Notes: generated from the sequence alone by a model not told the origin. A stretch of DNA of 64,000 nt from Pyxidicoccus parkwaysis (GCF_017301735.1 NZ_CP071090.1:3772001-3836000); one strand, 5' to 3'; positions 18,043-23,493 are shown, counted from the stretch's first letter. Program-made: numbers and translations.

Positions 18043-18243
18043 ATGACCGAAGTTCAGCAGACAACCCGTGACTACAAGATCCCCGATGGGTGCCCCATCT
18101 GCTCGGCGGACCTCCCGGTGCGCGTCACCGCGTCCGGGCCCAGTGCCGTCTGCAAGCACTGCGGCTGGTTCGGCCGCCCCGTCATCACCGTGACGCACCA
18201 GGGGCTTCGCGTCTCCTACGAGGGCGGGCTGGCACAGGCCTGA
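18043..18243 (+). CDS. Small zinc-ribbon protein
   Basis: A 66-residue soluble protein with a CPIC...CKHC arrangement (two CxxC knuckles about 18 residues apart), a typical zinc ribbon, then short beta strands (RPVITVTHQGLRVSYEGG). The start at 18043 (MTEVQQTTRDY) gives a compact domain. No partner is known. It lies alone between the lyase gene and the convergent caspase operon; its stop is 8 bp from the end of the lipoprotein gene. Confidence 0.7.
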   Translation: MTEVQQTTRDYKIPDGCPICSADLPVRVTASGPSAVCKHCGWFGRPVITVTHQGLRVSYEGGLAQA

Positions 18244-18251
18244 GCCCCATC

Positions 18252-19181
18252 TCAAGGAGGCGTGGGCGAGGGCCCGTCCGGCTTGCAGTAGGAGGGCGGC
18301 GGTCCTTTGTCATTCATCTCCACCGCGATGCTGGCGGTGGGCCGGCACGCGCGGAGCTGCTGGTCGCACTGGTAGGGCGGCTCCCGCTCGCAGTCCGCCG
18401 TCACGTTGCAGGACTTCAGCCAGTACGCCTTCGACTCTTCTTCCGGCACCCGGAGGAGCACCGAGCCCTTCTGACGGCAGTTGCTCGGCGGAGGCTCCAC
18501 AATCGCGCAGGCGCCACCGGGCCAGGGGCCGATCAGCTCGTGGATGCACACGCCGTTCGCGCCGCACTCCGCGTCCACCCGGCATGAGATTCCGAGCGGC
18601 ACGCCGCAGTCCTGGGCCGGTGCTGGCGGTTCATCGGGAGGGGGTGGACGGCACTCGAGCGGCGTCGAGACGAAGTACCAGCCCTCCGGGAGCGCGGCGC
18701 CCGTGGGCGAGTCCTGGGCCGACAGTCGCTGGGGCGCGCGAATCAACACCCGTCCCGGCGAGCCTCCGATGAGCGGCTCCGTGTCATCCCTGCGCCGGTT
18801 GCCATTCGTGTCCTGGTATGCGCCGAGCCAGGCGACGCCCACCTTTGCTCCCGAGGGACGCGTGATGAGGTGCTCGGGGCCGGGCTCGTCGAAGATGCGC
18901 AGCTCGAAGTTGCGGTAGTACTCCGCGCGGATGGCCGTGCCCTGCTGTTCGACGAACACGTCCTGCTCGCCGTAGGGCATGCCCCGGAGGCTCCAGAATA
19001 CGGCCACGCTTACGTCGGGATGCTCCGAGCCGACGTGCTCCGAGGTACCCGTCACGTTGCCCGGCACCGTGAACAGCGGCGTGCCCGAGTACGCGTCGTC
19101 AACGAGCGAGTCGCCACAGCCCAGCGCCGCGCCCACGAGCACCAGCGCGAGCCCCCGGAGGCCTGAAGTCACCACCGCCAT
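18252..19181 (-). CDS. Cysteine-rich lipoprotein, last gene of the ECF/caspase operon
   Basis: A 309-residue lipoprotein (lipobox ALGC at about residue 21). The mature chain has a beta-rich N-terminal half, then a C-terminal region of cysteine-spaced segments (CRVDAECGANGVCIHE, CNVTADCEREPPYQC) like those in many myxobacterial surface lipoproteins. GGGAGGAG sits four bases before the ATG at 19181; the start overlaps the end of the caspase gene by 13 bp. Function is unknown. Overlap with the caspase gene implies co-expression under the ECF sigma factor. Confidence 0.8.
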   Translation of the reverse strand: MAVVTSGLRGLALVLVGAALGCGDSLVDDAYSGTPLFTVPGNVTGTSEHVGSEHPDVSVAVFWSLRGMPYGEQDVFVEQQGTAIRAEYYRNFELRIFDEPGPEHLITRPSGAKVGVAWLGAYQDTNGNRRRDDTEPLIGGSPGRVLIRAPQRLSAQDSPTGAALPEGWYFVSTPLECRPPPPDEPPAPAQDCGVPLGISCRVDAECGANGVCIHELIGPWPGGACAIVEPPPSNCRQKGSVLLRVPEEESKAYWLKSCNVTADCEREPPYQCDQQLRACRPTASIAVEMNDKGPPPSYCKPDGPSPTPP

Positions 19182-20758
19182 ACGACTCCTCCCGAGCCCC
19201 ACCAGGTGAGGGGCGTCACCAGCTCGTGGCCCACCTCCACGCCGTTCTGCACCACGGCGCGCTGGACGAGGTTCGTCACGGGCCCGCCTTCCAGGCGGAG
19301 CGCGATGCCCGCGCCGAGCTGCCGCTCCACCAGCAGGATGCCGCCGAAGCCCGCGCCCCAGGAGCTCCGGTCCTGGACGCTTCGGTCCGTGTCGAAGCGC
19401 TGCTGGTGCAGCACGCCCTCGACGAAGAGGCCGAAGGCCACGCTCGCGGGCTCCAGGTCGATGAAGCGCAGTAGGGACAGGCCCAGTCCGAGCTCACTGT
19501 GACGGCGAGGCAGGAGGCCGTCCGCGCTCGTCGCGCTCACCGTCGCGCCACGCAGGCGCAGGCCCACCGAGCCCCAGTCGAAGTCGACGCCATAGCCGAG
19601 CTGGAGCTGGGGAAGGGCGCCGTCGCCCGCGAGCGACTCGCCTCGCAGCCCTGCTTCGAGCGAGAGGTTGTGCGAGTACGCCTTCGGCCCTCCGCGACGT
19701 CGCACGAGCCTGTCGTAACGGACCGTCTCGTAGGGCAACGCGGCGAGCTCCACCGCGCCCCCCGCCGTGAGCGACACCTGGTACTCGCGGTACTCGTCGG
19801 CCTTGCGCTGCTGCACGAAGTAGCTGCCGGCGGGCAGGGACAGCTCTCGCTTCTGGCCCTGCGGCGTGACTTCCGCCACCACCGGGCCTCCCTGCCGCCC
19901 CTCCATGATGAGGTAGAGCGCGGAGTCCGCCAGCCGGAGCTGACCCGTGCGCCCACGCTGACTGGCCGGTGTCGAGAGCACCAGCTCGCCGCGCCCCTTC
20001 ACCTCCCATGAATAGGTCGGGTGTTGCAGCGCCACCGTCTGGCCGCTCGAGCGCAGCGTCTGCGCGTAGGTGTAGCCGTAGGCCTCGGTCAGCGTCACGT
20101 TGCCGTCGTCATCGTGGTCCGCCGCGCCGCGCAGCGCGTTCGCCAGGTGGTGCGTGAAGAACGAGCCGCGCAGCCGGTCGGACTCCTGGCTCGCCTCGCC
20201 CGCGGCGCTGGAGGTGATGATGGCGAGGCCCTCGGTGGCCACGTGGTCCCTGAGGCTGATGTCGAAGGTCTGCGCGGTGCTGACACCCTTCACGCGCGTC
20301 ACCGTTCCGGAGCGGCACGCGTCCAGCACGAGGAGCCGCACTCCCGCTGGCGAGCCTTCCACCAGCGTCTTGATTTCCTCCAGCGGAAGCTCCGTGCGAC
20401 CCAGGTGCAGCGATGCCGCGTCCGCGTGGCCCGAGTAGAAGACGATGAGCGCGGTGGGCTGGCCGGCTCCAGCCTGGACACGGATGGCGGCATTCACGTC
20501 CTGGAGCGCGCGCCGCACGTTGGCCGCGTCCTCGCCGAGCAGCAGCAGCGTGCGCCGGGAGGAGACACCTCCTTGCTCGCGCAGCACGTCCGAGAAGAGG
20601 CGCGCGTCCTGCTCCGCGTACAGGAGGCCCACCTCACTGGCGGCGCCATCGTTGTGGCCGATGGCCACGACCCACGTCTGCTCCGGCAACGCTCTCGCTG
20701 ACAGCGGCGCGAGCAACGCGAGGACGAGTCCGAAGAGCACGCCTCGGTTCGTGCTCAT
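19169..20758 (-). CDS. Exported caspase-family (C14-like) protein with C-terminal barrel-like domain
   Basis: A 529-residue protein with a signal peptide (to about residue 23, ARALPEQT). The caspase fold covers about 28-230 with the His-Cys dyad His111 in FYSGHAD and Cys148 in LDACRSG. A canonical EF-hand loop, D214-x-D216-x-D218-G-N-V-T-x-x-E225, is visible near the end of this domain, as in calcium-activated metacaspases. After a PEGA-like linker (about 270-350) the C-terminus (370-529) consists of alternating strands and ends in WRW, suggesting an outer-membrane or surface barrel. The gene follows the anti-sigma gene with an ATGA overlap. Predicted site: periplasm or cell surface; substrates unknown. 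Confidence 0.85.
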   Translation of the reverse strand: MSTNRGVLFGLVLALLAPLSARALPEQTWVVAIGHNDGAASEVGLLYAEQDARLFSDVLREQGGVSSRRTLLLLGEDAANVRRALQDVNAAIRVQAGAGQPTALIVFYSGHADAASLHLGRTELPLEEIKTLVEGSPAGVRLLVLDACRSGTVTRVKGVSTAQTFDISLRDHVATEGLAIITSSAAGEASQESDRLRGSFFTHHLANALRGAADHDDDGNVTLTEAYGYTYAQTLRSSGQTVALQHPTYSWEVKGRGELVLSTPASQRGRTGQLRLADSALYLIMEGRQGGPVVAEVTPQGQKRELSLPAGSYFVQQRKADEYREYQVSLTAGGAVELAALPYETVRYDRLVRRRGGPKAYSHNLSLEAGLRGESLAGDGALPQLQLGYGVDFDWGSVGLRLRGATVSATSADGLLPRRHSELGLGLSLLRFIDLEPASVAFGLFVEGVLHQQRFDTDRSVQDRSSWGAGFGGILLVERQLGAGIALRLEGGPVTNLVQRAVVQNGVEVGHELVTPLTWWGSGGVVWRW

Positions 20759-21516
20759 GGCCGCAGCCCCTGCTTGTCCATGATGAACGGCGTGCTGATA
20801 CAGCCCTTGGGGCACGAGGGCGCGGTGCCGGGGCCCGTGGACTCGCAGCGCGGCGGGGCGCTGCTGTCGGGGCAGTGCACGAGGTAGAGCGTCTCGCGGC
20901 CCGGCTGCGCGTCGAGCGACACCGCGCCGGGGAGCTCGATGGCGTTGCCCGCGGACAGGTGTGTCCGTTGCTCGGGCTCGCGCGGCCAGGCGGTGTAGAG
21001 CGCTCCCGAGGACTCGACGCCGAGGACCATCACCTGGCCTTCCTGTGGCAGGTCCACGGCGAAGCGGATCCGGTCTCCTGGAGTGAAGGCGCCTCCGCTG
21101 ACCATCTCCTCCGCGTGGTCTCCCGCGAGCCGGAACACGTGCAGCGCGGGCGAGCCCTTCATGCGCGTGCCCGGGGTCTCCACCTCCGGACGCACCAGCA
21201 CGAAGACGACGGCGGCGGTGGCCGCGACGGCCAGCGGGGCGAAGTAGCGCAGCAACCGGCGGTGCAGGGGCGGGGGCTGGTCGAGCCCCGTCCGGATTCG
21301 CGCCAGCATCGCGCGTGGGTCCACGCCATCAACGGCGTCGAAGCCGGCACGGCGCTCGGACATGCGAGCGGTGCAGTCCGCGCAGCCGGCGAGGTGTTGC
21401 TCGATTTGCTGCGCGGCTTCCTTCGCGAGCTCGCCGGCATGGAGCCGGTCCAGCGACAAGTCGGACGGGCAGCCCGGGCCGCCTTGCCGCAGGGTGGTGA
21501 AGTCAGGGGGGCTCAT
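20755..21516 (-). CDS. Anti-sigma factor with zinc finger and DUF4384-like domain
   Basis: A 253-residue membrane protein. The N-terminal ZAS-type zinc finger has His41-x3-Cys45-x2-Cys48 (QHLAGCADC). One transmembrane segment follows (about 92-108), then an extracytoplasmic domain with FAVDLPQEGQVMVLGVESSGALYTAWPRE, which resembles DUF4384 sensory domains, and a short cysteine-rich C-terminus. It should bind and inhibit the ECF sigma factor encoded immediately upstream (the genes overlap by 4 bp) and release it on an envelope signal. DUF4384 modules often occur with caspase-like proteins, which fits the next gene. Confidence 0.85.
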   Translation of the reverse strand: MSPPDFTTLRQGGPGCPSDLSLDRLHAGELAKEAAQQIEQHLAGCADCTARMSERRAGFDAVDGVDPRAMLARIRTGLDQPPPLHRRLLRYFAPLAVAATAAVVFVLVRPEVETPGTRMKGSPALHVFRLAGDHAEEMVSGGAFTPGDRIRFAVDLPQEGQVMVLGVESSGALYTAWPREPEQRTHLSAGNAIELPGAVSLDAQPGRETLYLVHCPDSSAPPRCESTGPGTAPSCPKGCISTPFIMDKQGLRP

Positions 21517-22223
21517 GACCGCCTCCTTCCGAATCCGAAGAACCCGGACGCCTTGCGCTCCGGTGGCGAGTTGTTGGCTGCGGGGGCCTCGGTCGCCAGG
21601 GCGGTCCTGGCTGCGGCCCAGGCCTGGAATCGCTCGAGGAGGTTTCCCACCGTCCGCTTGGACACGCCGAGGACCTCGGCGGCTTCTTCGTGCGACATGC
21701 CGTCGAGGAAGACATAGACGGCCGCGCTGGCCTGCTTCTCATCCGCATCCGCGATGAGTCGGCGGAGGAGGACGAGGTCATCAGGGCGCACGGGCTCGGT
21801 GCGCTCCTCGGCATCTCCGGCGGCGGGCATGTGCTCCGCGTACAATTCGGCTCGGCGGGAGCGGTCTCGGATGAGGTTGAGACAGTAATGGGTGGCGATT
21901 TGATACAGCCAGGTGGTGAGCTGGCTCTGCTGCCGGAACCCCTCCGCGCCTTTGAATGCGCGGATGAAGATCTCCTGCGTTGCCTCCTCGGCGTCCGCGG
22001 GATTGCCCAATAGGCGCAGGGCCCGGCGGTAGACGCGCGGACCATGCTGGTTGAAGAGCTGGGAGAGCTGCTGTGAGTCGGCTCGGCTCACGACACCATT
22101 CGAGGGAGGGTGGGGGGCGGAGCGTAACAGTGATGACTTGCCCGGTTCGATACGCCCCCGGGACGCCTGGCTCCCCTGCGGGGCCGGCGTGTCGCTCCGG
22201 GTCTGAACTAGGATGGTCATCAT
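21513..22223 (-). CDS. ECF RNA polymerase sigma factor
   Basis: A 236-residue sigma-70 family ECF protein. Region 2 is at about 50-120 with the DAEEATQEIFIRAFK and WLYQIATHYCLNLIRDRSRR motifs. Region 4 is at about 165-210 with MSHEEAAEVLGVSKRTVGNLLERF. A 48-residue N-terminal extension precedes region 2. The two adjacent ATGs at 22223/22220 have GGGAG upstream with 9-12 bases spacing; a later GTG start without the extension is possible. It heads the operon sigma, anti-sigma, caspase, lipoprotein. Its start codon is base-to-base against the start of the divergent metzincin gene, so the two promoters must overlap the opposing genes. Confidence 0.9.
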   Translation of the reverse strand: MMTILVQTRSDTPAPQGSQASRGRIEPGKSSLLRSAPHPPSNGVVSRADSQQLSQLFNQHGPRVYRRALRLLGNPADAEEATQEIFIRAFKGAEGFRQQSQLTTWLYQIATHYCLNLIRDRSRRAELYAEHMPAAGDAEERTEPVRPDDLVLLRRLIADADEKQASAAVYVFLDGMSHEEAAEVLGVSKRTVGNLLERFQAWAAARTALATEAPAANNSPPERKASGFFGFGRRRS

Positions 22224-23493
22224 GCGAGCCGTCTCCCGCCTTCACTCCCTTGGACCCGTGGGGCTGGATTTCGGGCAAACGCGATTCGCGACACGGGTTT
22301 TTTCGTTGCTGGTCCTGGGGTTGATGGCGGCGTGCTCGGCGAGCGAGCCCCCGGATGCTTCCCCTCCTGAGGTCTGTTGGACCCCACTGGATAAGGCCGC
22401 GATTGCGAGCCCCTGGCGGGCTCCGTGGAACACGGTGGGCGAGCCTGGGCTCGATGCAGCGGGTTTGGGGACGGAGGTGGAGGTGGCGGTCGGGGCAGTG
22501 GGGACGGCGCTCCGTGTATCCGGGCTGGACGGGGCGTCGGCATGCTTCCAACTGCACGAGGTGACGGACCCGGATGGCAGCGCGTGGGTGACTCCGCCGG
22601 TTTCGGCTGAGGATTATGGGCCGTACTGCTCGAGCTGTCCGGAGCGTGTGTCCGTGGGCGTGGGCTCGGGGTTGTACGTGCTGCCCTCGGGTGACCCTGG
22701 GCCTGCTGTTGCGTCACGGCTGCGCGTTCGGGTCGCGGCTCGCGAGTGCTCGACGTTCCTTCCGACGCGGACGGGGGAGGCTCCGGCGCGGCTGCGGGTC
22801 GAGTCGTTGAATCTGGATGACGTGGCGGAGACGCGTGAAGGCGTGGTGTTGCTGGAGGTGGCCATCACCGCTGGCTCCGTGTTCCATGACGACGATGCGC
22901 CTCTTCCGGCGGTGCTGGTGCAGGCGATTACTGAGGTGAATGCGCTGCTGCGTCCGGGGCGGCTTTCGGTAAAGGCTGTTCGTGTGCGGCGCGTGGATGG
23001 AGCGGACCCGATTGAGTTCCAGCGCGGGGACTTCACTGCGCTGAACCGATTGCATGCCACGGTGCATGACTGTGACCAGGGTGGGGCAGCGCCGGATGAC
23101 GGTTGGGTGCCCGTGGTGCTCGCGGGATGTCTGCGCCTTACCGACCCGGTGTTGAAGACGTCGACCGAACCGGAGGGCTTCGTGCCGCACATCCCGGATG
23201 GACTGGCGGCGCAGGGCAGGGCGCACGGTGTCTTCATCCGGGGGCGAGATTGTCGCGAAGGCTCACAGCCTGCTGCGTGGCCGGCGGGGTATCTCGGCCG
23301 GCTCATTGCGCATGAGTTGGGGCACTACCTGGGGCTGTACCACTCCGTAGAGGAGGACGGGACGCCGGACCTCCTCGACGACACGGGCGCGGACAATTTG
23401 ATGTTCTGGCGCCCGGCTTCAGTTGCGTCACCTGCGTTCAGCGCGAGCCAGTTCCGCGTCATGCGCCGGCATCCGGCAGTGCGGTGGGAGTAG
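22222..23493 (+). CDS. Metzincin-type metalloprotease lipoprotein
   Basis: A 423-residue protein with a long n-region followed by a lipoprotein signal (VFSLLVLGLMAAC, Cys38). The extended zinc site HELGHYLGLYH (His364, Glu365, His368, His374) is followed 20 residues later by NLM, a plausible Met-turn (Met394). This is the metzincin pattern, close to pappalysin or reprolysin-like enzymes. The 250-residue N-terminal part is beta-rich and unassigned. AGGA lies eight bases before the chosen ATG; a GTG at 22258 is an alternative. It is divergent from, and touching, the ECF sigma gene, hinting at joint control. Confidence 0.82.
   Translation: MRAVSRLHSLGPVGLDFGQTRFATRVFSLLVLGLMAACSASEPPDASPPEVCWTPLDKAAIASPWRAPWNTVGEPGLDAAGLGTEVEVAVGAVGTALRVSGLDGASACFQLHEVTDPDGSAWVTPPVSAEDYGPYCSSCPERVSVGVGSGLYVLPSGDPGPAVASRLRVRVAARECSTFLPTRTGEAPARLRVESLNLDDVAETREGVVLLEVAITAGSVFHDDDAPLPAVLVQAITEVNALLRPGRLSVKAVRVRRVDGADPIEFQRGDFTALNRLHATVHDCDQGGAAPDDGWVPVVLAGCLRLTDPVLKTSTEPEGFVPHIPDGLAAQGRAHGVFIRGRDCREGSQPAAWPAGYLGRLIAHELGHYLGLYHSVEEDGTPDLLDDTGADNLMFWRPASVASPAFSASQFRVMRRHPAVRWE

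Follow-up and report, generated by a model that had tools for sequence, protein, structure and literature searches.

We analyzed a 64,000-nucleotide stretch (the window) of the genome of Pyxidicoccus parkwaysis, a soil bacterium related to Myxococcus (GCF_017301735.1, NZ_CP071090.1:3772001-3836000). Within it, four genes on the minus strand form an operon that encodes an extracytoplasmic function (ECF) sigma factor, a zf-HC2 anti-sigma factor, an exported caspase, and a Cys-rich putative lipoprotein. Successive genes overlap, by 4 bases (ATGA) at the sigma/anti-sigma and anti-sigma/caspase junctions and by 13 bases between the caspase and lipoprotein genes. These overlaps and the Pfam families confirm the four-gene arrangement recognized by an initial annotation of the window. 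Coordinates are collected in Table 1.

Table 1. Features of the sigma/anti-sigma/caspase operon, in window positions
Feature	Position	Strand	Basis
ECF sigma factor gene, regions 2 and 4	21513..22091	-	Pfam; open reading frame open to 22223
Anti-sigma factor, 253 residues: zf-HC2, transmembrane helix, linker, periplasmic DUF4384-like beta-sandwich	20755..21516	-	Pfam, AlphaFold2
Anti-sigma transmembrane helix, residues 90-107	21196..21249	-	AlphaFold2 helix and hydrophobicity
Site 3: anti-sigma juxtamembrane R118-M-K120-G121, 13 residues after the transmembrane helix	21154..21165	-	End of low-confidence linker
Periplasmic DUF4384-like beta-sandwich, residues 124-248	20773..21147	-	AlphaFold2 strands
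Caspase (C14) fused to outer-membrane beta-barrel, 529 residues	19169..20758	-	Pfam PF00656, AlphaFold2
Signal peptide, about residues 1-23	20690..20758	-	Hydrophobic N-terminus ending SARA
Caspase domain, residues 26-265	19964..20683	-	VIA structural match
Catalytic His111 (SGH)	20426..20428	-	101/101; aligned to metacaspase SGH
Catalytic Cys148 (DAC)	20315..20317	-	101/101; aligned to metacaspase D[AS]C[HR]SG
Site 1: R155-V-K157-G158, K at Cys+9, start of disordered p20/p10 loop (157-173)	20285..20296	-	Alignment, AlphaFold2
EF-hand-like loop D214-x-D-x-D-G-x-V-x-L-x-E225	20084..20119	-	Between two helices
Site 2: R353-R-R355-G356, linker before barrel	19691..19702	-	Alignment; linker of low model confidence
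C-terminal eight-stranded outer-membrane barrel, residues 361-529	19172..19678	-	AlphaFold2, Foldseek
Cys-rich putative lipoprotein	18252..19181	-	Lipobox-like LVGAALGC by inspection

The caspase matches Peptidase_C14 at 39.6 bits (cut-off 21.4), whereas it falls short of the NCBIfam model caspase_w_EACC1 (NF047832; 62 bits, cut-off 140). Its AlphaFold2 (AF2) model, built with 68 homologues, has a predicted local distance difference test (pLDDT) score of 87.5 and a predicted template modeling score of 0.70. Residues 19-263 match procaspase-7 (VIA Z 22.4), caspase-8 (about 22), and the metacaspase AtMC4 (21.9), and H111 and C148 occupy the places expected of the His-Cys dyad in this fold. In an alignment of 101 caspases, D51, S109, H111, D146, and C148 are invariant. 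S109, D51, and D146 are the counterparts of Asp95/Asp211 of TbMCA2 and Ser84/Asp137 of AtMC4, the S1 residues of two metacaspases that cut after Lys/Arg (PMC4357240; PMC7206013). We regard D146 and D51 as candidate S1 pocket residues, and by its pocket residues the enzyme is a candidate Lys/Arg-specific protease. Because the dyad is intact and S109, D51, and D146 are invariant, it is also a candidate site-1 protease.

Both ends of the protein point to the envelope. A hydrophobic N-terminal stretch is present in every aligned homologue. At the other end, AF2 strands between residues 361 and 528 form an eight-stranded up-down barrel of the OmpA/OmpX/NspA/OmpW type in the predicted structure, with Foldseek matches to OmpA (7e-7), NspA (3e-6), OmpW (5e-6), and OmpX (1e-5). 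The protein ends in VVWRW, and F, L, or W is terminal in 76 of 96 homologues. Since a barrel with an even number of strands has its two ends on the periplasmic side, the protease is expected to face the periplasm. Thus, the envelope location and the outer-membrane C-terminus proposed in the initial annotation hold up: the C-terminal region is predicted to be a barrel rather than a soluble fold, and the dyad is correctly placed. The caspase domain also contains an EF-hand-like loop that AF2 models as helix-loop-helix, with D214 and E225 conserved in 101/101 and D218 in 96/101 homologues; residues 214-225 gave no Pfam EF-hand match. By analogy with metacaspases, this loop suggests Ca2+ dependence. 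Similar loops occur in a TPR caspase (locus L221) and in the caspases of two more distant branches, B and C, which are described below.

Next to the caspase gene lies that of the anti-sigma factor, which has the makeup of the zf-HC2 anti-sigma family: a zf-HC2 match (24.9 bits, cut-off 22.2) followed by one transmembrane helix, encoded beside an ECF sigma gene. Its AF2 model reaches a pLDDT of 85.8. The linker after the transmembrane helix scores about 50, confidence jumps at residue 121, and the folded domain starts at about residue 122. Against DUF4384 (PF14326) the protein scored 19.9 bits; as this lies below the gathering cut-off of 27, "DUF4384-like," the wording first applied to it, is the right label. 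The periplasmic domain had no PDB match at E<1e-3, which does not in itself indicate a new fold. The sigma factor itself contains Sigma70_r2 (1.1e-19) and r4_2 (4e-7). Its start is probably the GTG at 22091 and not the ATG at 22223, because conservation among orthologues sets in at a GTG or TTG there. Upstream of the gene, at 22100-22180, lies an ECF-promoter-like GAAC-N14-CTGTTA that is also present in the closest orthologue; we do not claim a shared ECF promoter, since its spacing differs in other loci.

What is new here is a [Lys/Arg]-Gly motif that is fixed at three places in the caspase and anti-sigma alignments, each of them in a variable or disordered linker. At site 1, in the loop that follows the catalytic Cys, K157 and G158 are conserved in 101/101 and R155 in 94/101 caspases, at the edge of a loop (157-173) with pLDDT below 50. 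Site 2 lies in the linker before the barrel, where model confidence is also low (around 350-360). Here [KR]G is found in all 100 homologues that reach the region, as against 28% of random windows from the same proteins. Site 3 is in the anti-sigma factor. Among 94 anti-sigmas, which form 61 clusters at 50% identity, position 120 is K in 90 and R in 4, G121 is present in every one, and R118 in 78. The zinc ligands of these same proteins are less conserved than the motif (83/94). Most columns flanking sites 2 and 3 are only 0.2-0.6 conserved. The counts for sites 1 and 3 come from alignments, not from automatic site picking. Since site 3 falls in the low-confidence linker just outside the transmembrane helix, it lies where a site-1 protease is expected to cut.

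The association of the two proteins is widespread and repeated. The 13.2-Mb genome encodes 15 such caspases, that of the window included, and 13 of them adjoin an anti-sigma of this type (the window, L031-L037, L162-L164, L219, and L220; the exceptions are L038 and L221). Most of 100 loci from Myxococcota show the gene order sigma - anti-sigma - caspase, and this order is the rule in the 80 loci that were taken from genome contigs in addition to those of this genome; the profile for the contig scan was built from nine caspases, as 17 diverse ones had no stretch conserved enough. A caspase (E <= 1e-30) was detected in 155 of 195 sampled Myxococcota genomes. Two operons outside Myxococcota, both in metagenome-assembled genomes (L061 and the AT-rich L366), have the same gene order and keep all three sites. 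A plasmid collection yielded only distant caspases.

The more distant operons make up branches B and C, beside the branch of the window, A. Branch B caspases carry R at Cys+9 (SRG, RRG, PRK) and an [AST]RG-like site 2, and their anti-sigmas have ARG/SRG/TRG-like motifs. Branch C anti-sigmas have KG; the caspases of this branch show CHSGxGKS, with KG near the N-terminus and in the linker. Where the caspase loop has K, in branches A and C, the anti-sigma nearly always has K as well. Across the three branches, Lys versus Arg thus mostly agrees between the two partners. One genome (L228) shows a change in both, SRG to SRA in the caspase loop and ARG to ARS in the anti-sigma, possibly a compensatory change at P1'. 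The branches also differ in how the caspase seems to be held. Branch C caspases (L219, L220, L253-L282) have a lipobox-like N-terminus with EKG nearby and an aromatic end like that of outer-membrane proteins, and they are possibly tethered at both ends. In some branch B caspases (L164, L165, and relatives), apparent hydrophobic transmembrane-like stretches replace the barrel, which suggests an inner-membrane variant.

Most bacterial caspase homologues have no known function or substrate, and programmed cell death is the usual guess. The observed anatomy, predicted fold, dyad, pocket residues, and neighborhoods, together with the conservation of the three [KR]-G sites, lead us to a different model, to which we assign a probability of roughly 0.6: the caspase is a site-1 protease for its cognate anti-sigma, tethered to the outer membrane and able to release itself. 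We infer every cleavage in this model, as well as the self-release, the order of events, the signal, the site-2 step, and the regulon. The sigma factor would be held at the inner membrane by the zinc-finger anti-sigma, while the exported caspase would be anchored in the outer membrane through its own eight-stranded barrel with the protease in the periplasm. The trigger might be a perturbation of the barrel, which may be the sensor, or Ca2+ at the EF-hand-like loop. Like a metacaspase, the caspase would then cut itself in the post-Cys loop, at RVK157|G158. A further self-cut, at RR355|G356 in the linker that precedes the barrel, would free the protease. Once free, it would act as the site-1 protease and cut the anti-sigma just outside the inner membrane at RMK120|G121. 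A resident site-2 protease would deal with the remaining 13-residue stub, and the sigma factor would be released. Several PF02163 site-2 protease matches above the cut-off are present in the genome.

The initial annotation instead placed the caspase under the sigma factor, as an effector in what could be an envelope-stress, fratricide, or predation response, and the evidence points to a protease acting upstream of the sigma factor. In the fullest form of the effector idea, an envelope caspase is induced by the sigma factor, matures by cutting itself at sites 1 and 2, and degrades proteins of the envelope or of foreign origin, for instance during predation, development, or cell death. The anti-sigma would either stay uncut or be the substrate of an unrelated site-1 protease. 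Autoregulation is common for the first genes of ECF operons and would bring induction of the caspase with it; sites 1 and 2 require no anti-sigma; and developmental cell death is known in myxobacteria and was the function proposed in 2012 (PMC3501461). Even so, we consider this scheme unlikely, because it leaves unexplained both the same [KR]G in the anti-sigma linker of 94/94 proteins and the replacement of K by R in both partners in branch B. Moreover, 13 parallel anti-sigma-caspase sets in one genome fit signaling channels better than a single effector. A trypsin-like or other Lys/Arg-specific envelope protease could also be imagined to cut all three sites, which share one consensus, and so to activate caspase and sigma factor together. 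No such gene was recognized in the operon or among its neighbors, whereas the operon's own caspase has a basic-P1 pocket, and we hold this explanation to be very improbable.

The anti-sigma motif could instead escape cleavage and have a structural role, capping the periplasmic domain where it begins, or serve in docking. The jump in AF2 confidence at residue 121 is in keeping with such a role, and some of the conservation of G121, which borders the folded domain, could have structural reasons. The motif is also kept in two caspase-less lineages (L161/L179/L180 and L177) and is thus not strictly tied to a cognate caspase. On the other hand, four full-length caspase-less anti-sigmas from one genus (L283, L337, L345, and L346) have the homologous folded domain and have lost the motif, and the combination of K/R at P1 and R at P3 matches the caspase loop and not a generic glycine cap. 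Among zf-HC2 anti-sigmas without a caspase, 5 of 16 have [KR]G within 30 residues of the transmembrane helix, at scattered positions. A purely structural motif therefore seems improbable to us.

The retained motifs and the position of G121 count against the proposed cleavage of the anti-sigma by its caspase, and so do several features of the branches. The Lys/Arg concordance lies between clades and probably reflects a single switch; in branch A, K in the caspase loop is paired with R in four anti-sigmas; the branch C post-Cys loop has GKS in place of K-G; and some branch B anti-sigmas carry RS where RG is expected. An apparent covariation of the P3 Arg between the caspase loop and the anti-sigma (raw Fisher 8e-6, in a set that holds a few doubtful automatic site picks; p=0.007 in a smaller set) is not significant once phylogeny is counted. 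We do not treat it as evidence, because only 3 independent pairs fall on supported branches; the doubtful picks are a further ground for discounting it.

The putative lipoprotein matched no Pfam family, and ATG 19181 is a better choice for its start than GTG 19202. Most loci have a related gene, which follows the caspase gene in some and precedes the sigma gene in others. On the plus strand, a 66-residue protein with two CxxC pairs, zinc-ribbon-like, is encoded at 18043-18243, and a divergent gene at 22222-23493 has weak M10/M12 metallopeptidase matches; both are kept beside the operon in L039. Among the caspase-less relatives, L161 (G000:C1:10195500-10203500), L179, and L180 are paralogous operons from which the caspase domain is gone and which encode a sigma factor, an anti-sigma with TR[IS]KG, and a stand-alone barrel-like protein. 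The barrel-like protein of L161 has RKG near the start of the barrel, and its C-terminus resembles that of the L037 caspase.

Operons of the same kind, pairing a sigma-70 factor with a metacaspase gene, were reported in 2012 for four of five M. xanthus metacaspases and for Anaeromyxobacter, Haliangium, Sorangium, Ralstonia, and Fibrobacter (Asplund-Samuelsson, PMC3501461). That report suggested cell death, and in its passages considered here we found no anti-sigma pairing, barrel, cleavage-site motif, or mechanism. Thus, the initial description of the system as not well described was too strong for the operon and stands for the mechanism, for which we found no account in the open-access literature. 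Nor did that literature, as distinct from subscription papers and preprints, which lay outside the search, yield a proposal that a metacaspase or caspase cuts an anti-sigma. The nearest statement is that ECF54 may be under the control of proteases that include CHAT proteins (PMC8999054). For the caspase family found in 155 of the 195 sampled Myxococcota genomes, the model names a predicted function, a predicted substrate, and the residue at which it would be cut. More broadly, we see about an even chance that these enzymes form a class of self-releasing outer-membrane site-1 proteases, each with its own anti-sigma/sigma pair, that would provide about a dozen parallel caspase-to-sigma channels, leading from the outer membrane to transcription, in one myxobacterial genome and would not be death enzymes. 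Their job would then be signaling, not killing.

It is useful to contrast the operon with better-known systems. Metacaspases and orthocaspases such as AtMC4, TbMCA2, and MaOC1 share the His-Cys dyad, the acidic S1 residues, and a Lys/Arg in the loop after p20. AtMC4 offers a direct precedent for site 1: its Lys225, in this linker, both keeps the active site blocked and marks the place of the first self-cut. Unlike these enzymes, the caspase described here is exported, carries a beta domain and an outer-membrane barrel, and is paired with an anti-sigma. The logic of a caspase-like protease that relieves an ECF sigma inhibitor is known from the CRISPR system of Cas7-11, Csx29, Csx30, and CASP-sigma, in which Csx29 cuts the inhibitor (PMC10028731). 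That system is CRISPR-guided and uses a TPR-CHAT protease, whereas the present one belongs to the envelope, has no CRISPR parts, and joins a C14 domain to a barrel. No PADLOC model of a defense system matched any of the four operon proteins, and a defense reading was rejected. If our model is correct, the operon is a chromosomal envelope counterpart of the Csx29-Csx30 logic.

The anti-sigma side resembles ECF systems activated by regulated intramembrane proteolysis (RseA/DegS/RseP; RsiW, RsiV, RsiP), with a transmembrane anti-sigma, a short periplasmic linker, and site-2 proteases in the genome. Those systems use DegS, PrsW, or signal peptidase, whereas the site-1 protease proposed here is a caspase from the operon itself, with an outer-membrane anchor; this would be intramembrane-proteolysis signaling with an unforeseen protease and an outer-membrane tether. 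As in cell-surface signaling of the FecA/FecR/FecI type, an outer-membrane protein would talk to a sigma regulator at the inner membrane. Here, however, there is no TonB-dependent receptor, and the released protease would be the link. The operon would then represent a new kind of outer-membrane-to-sigma signaling, with a protease that severs its own tether as the messenger.

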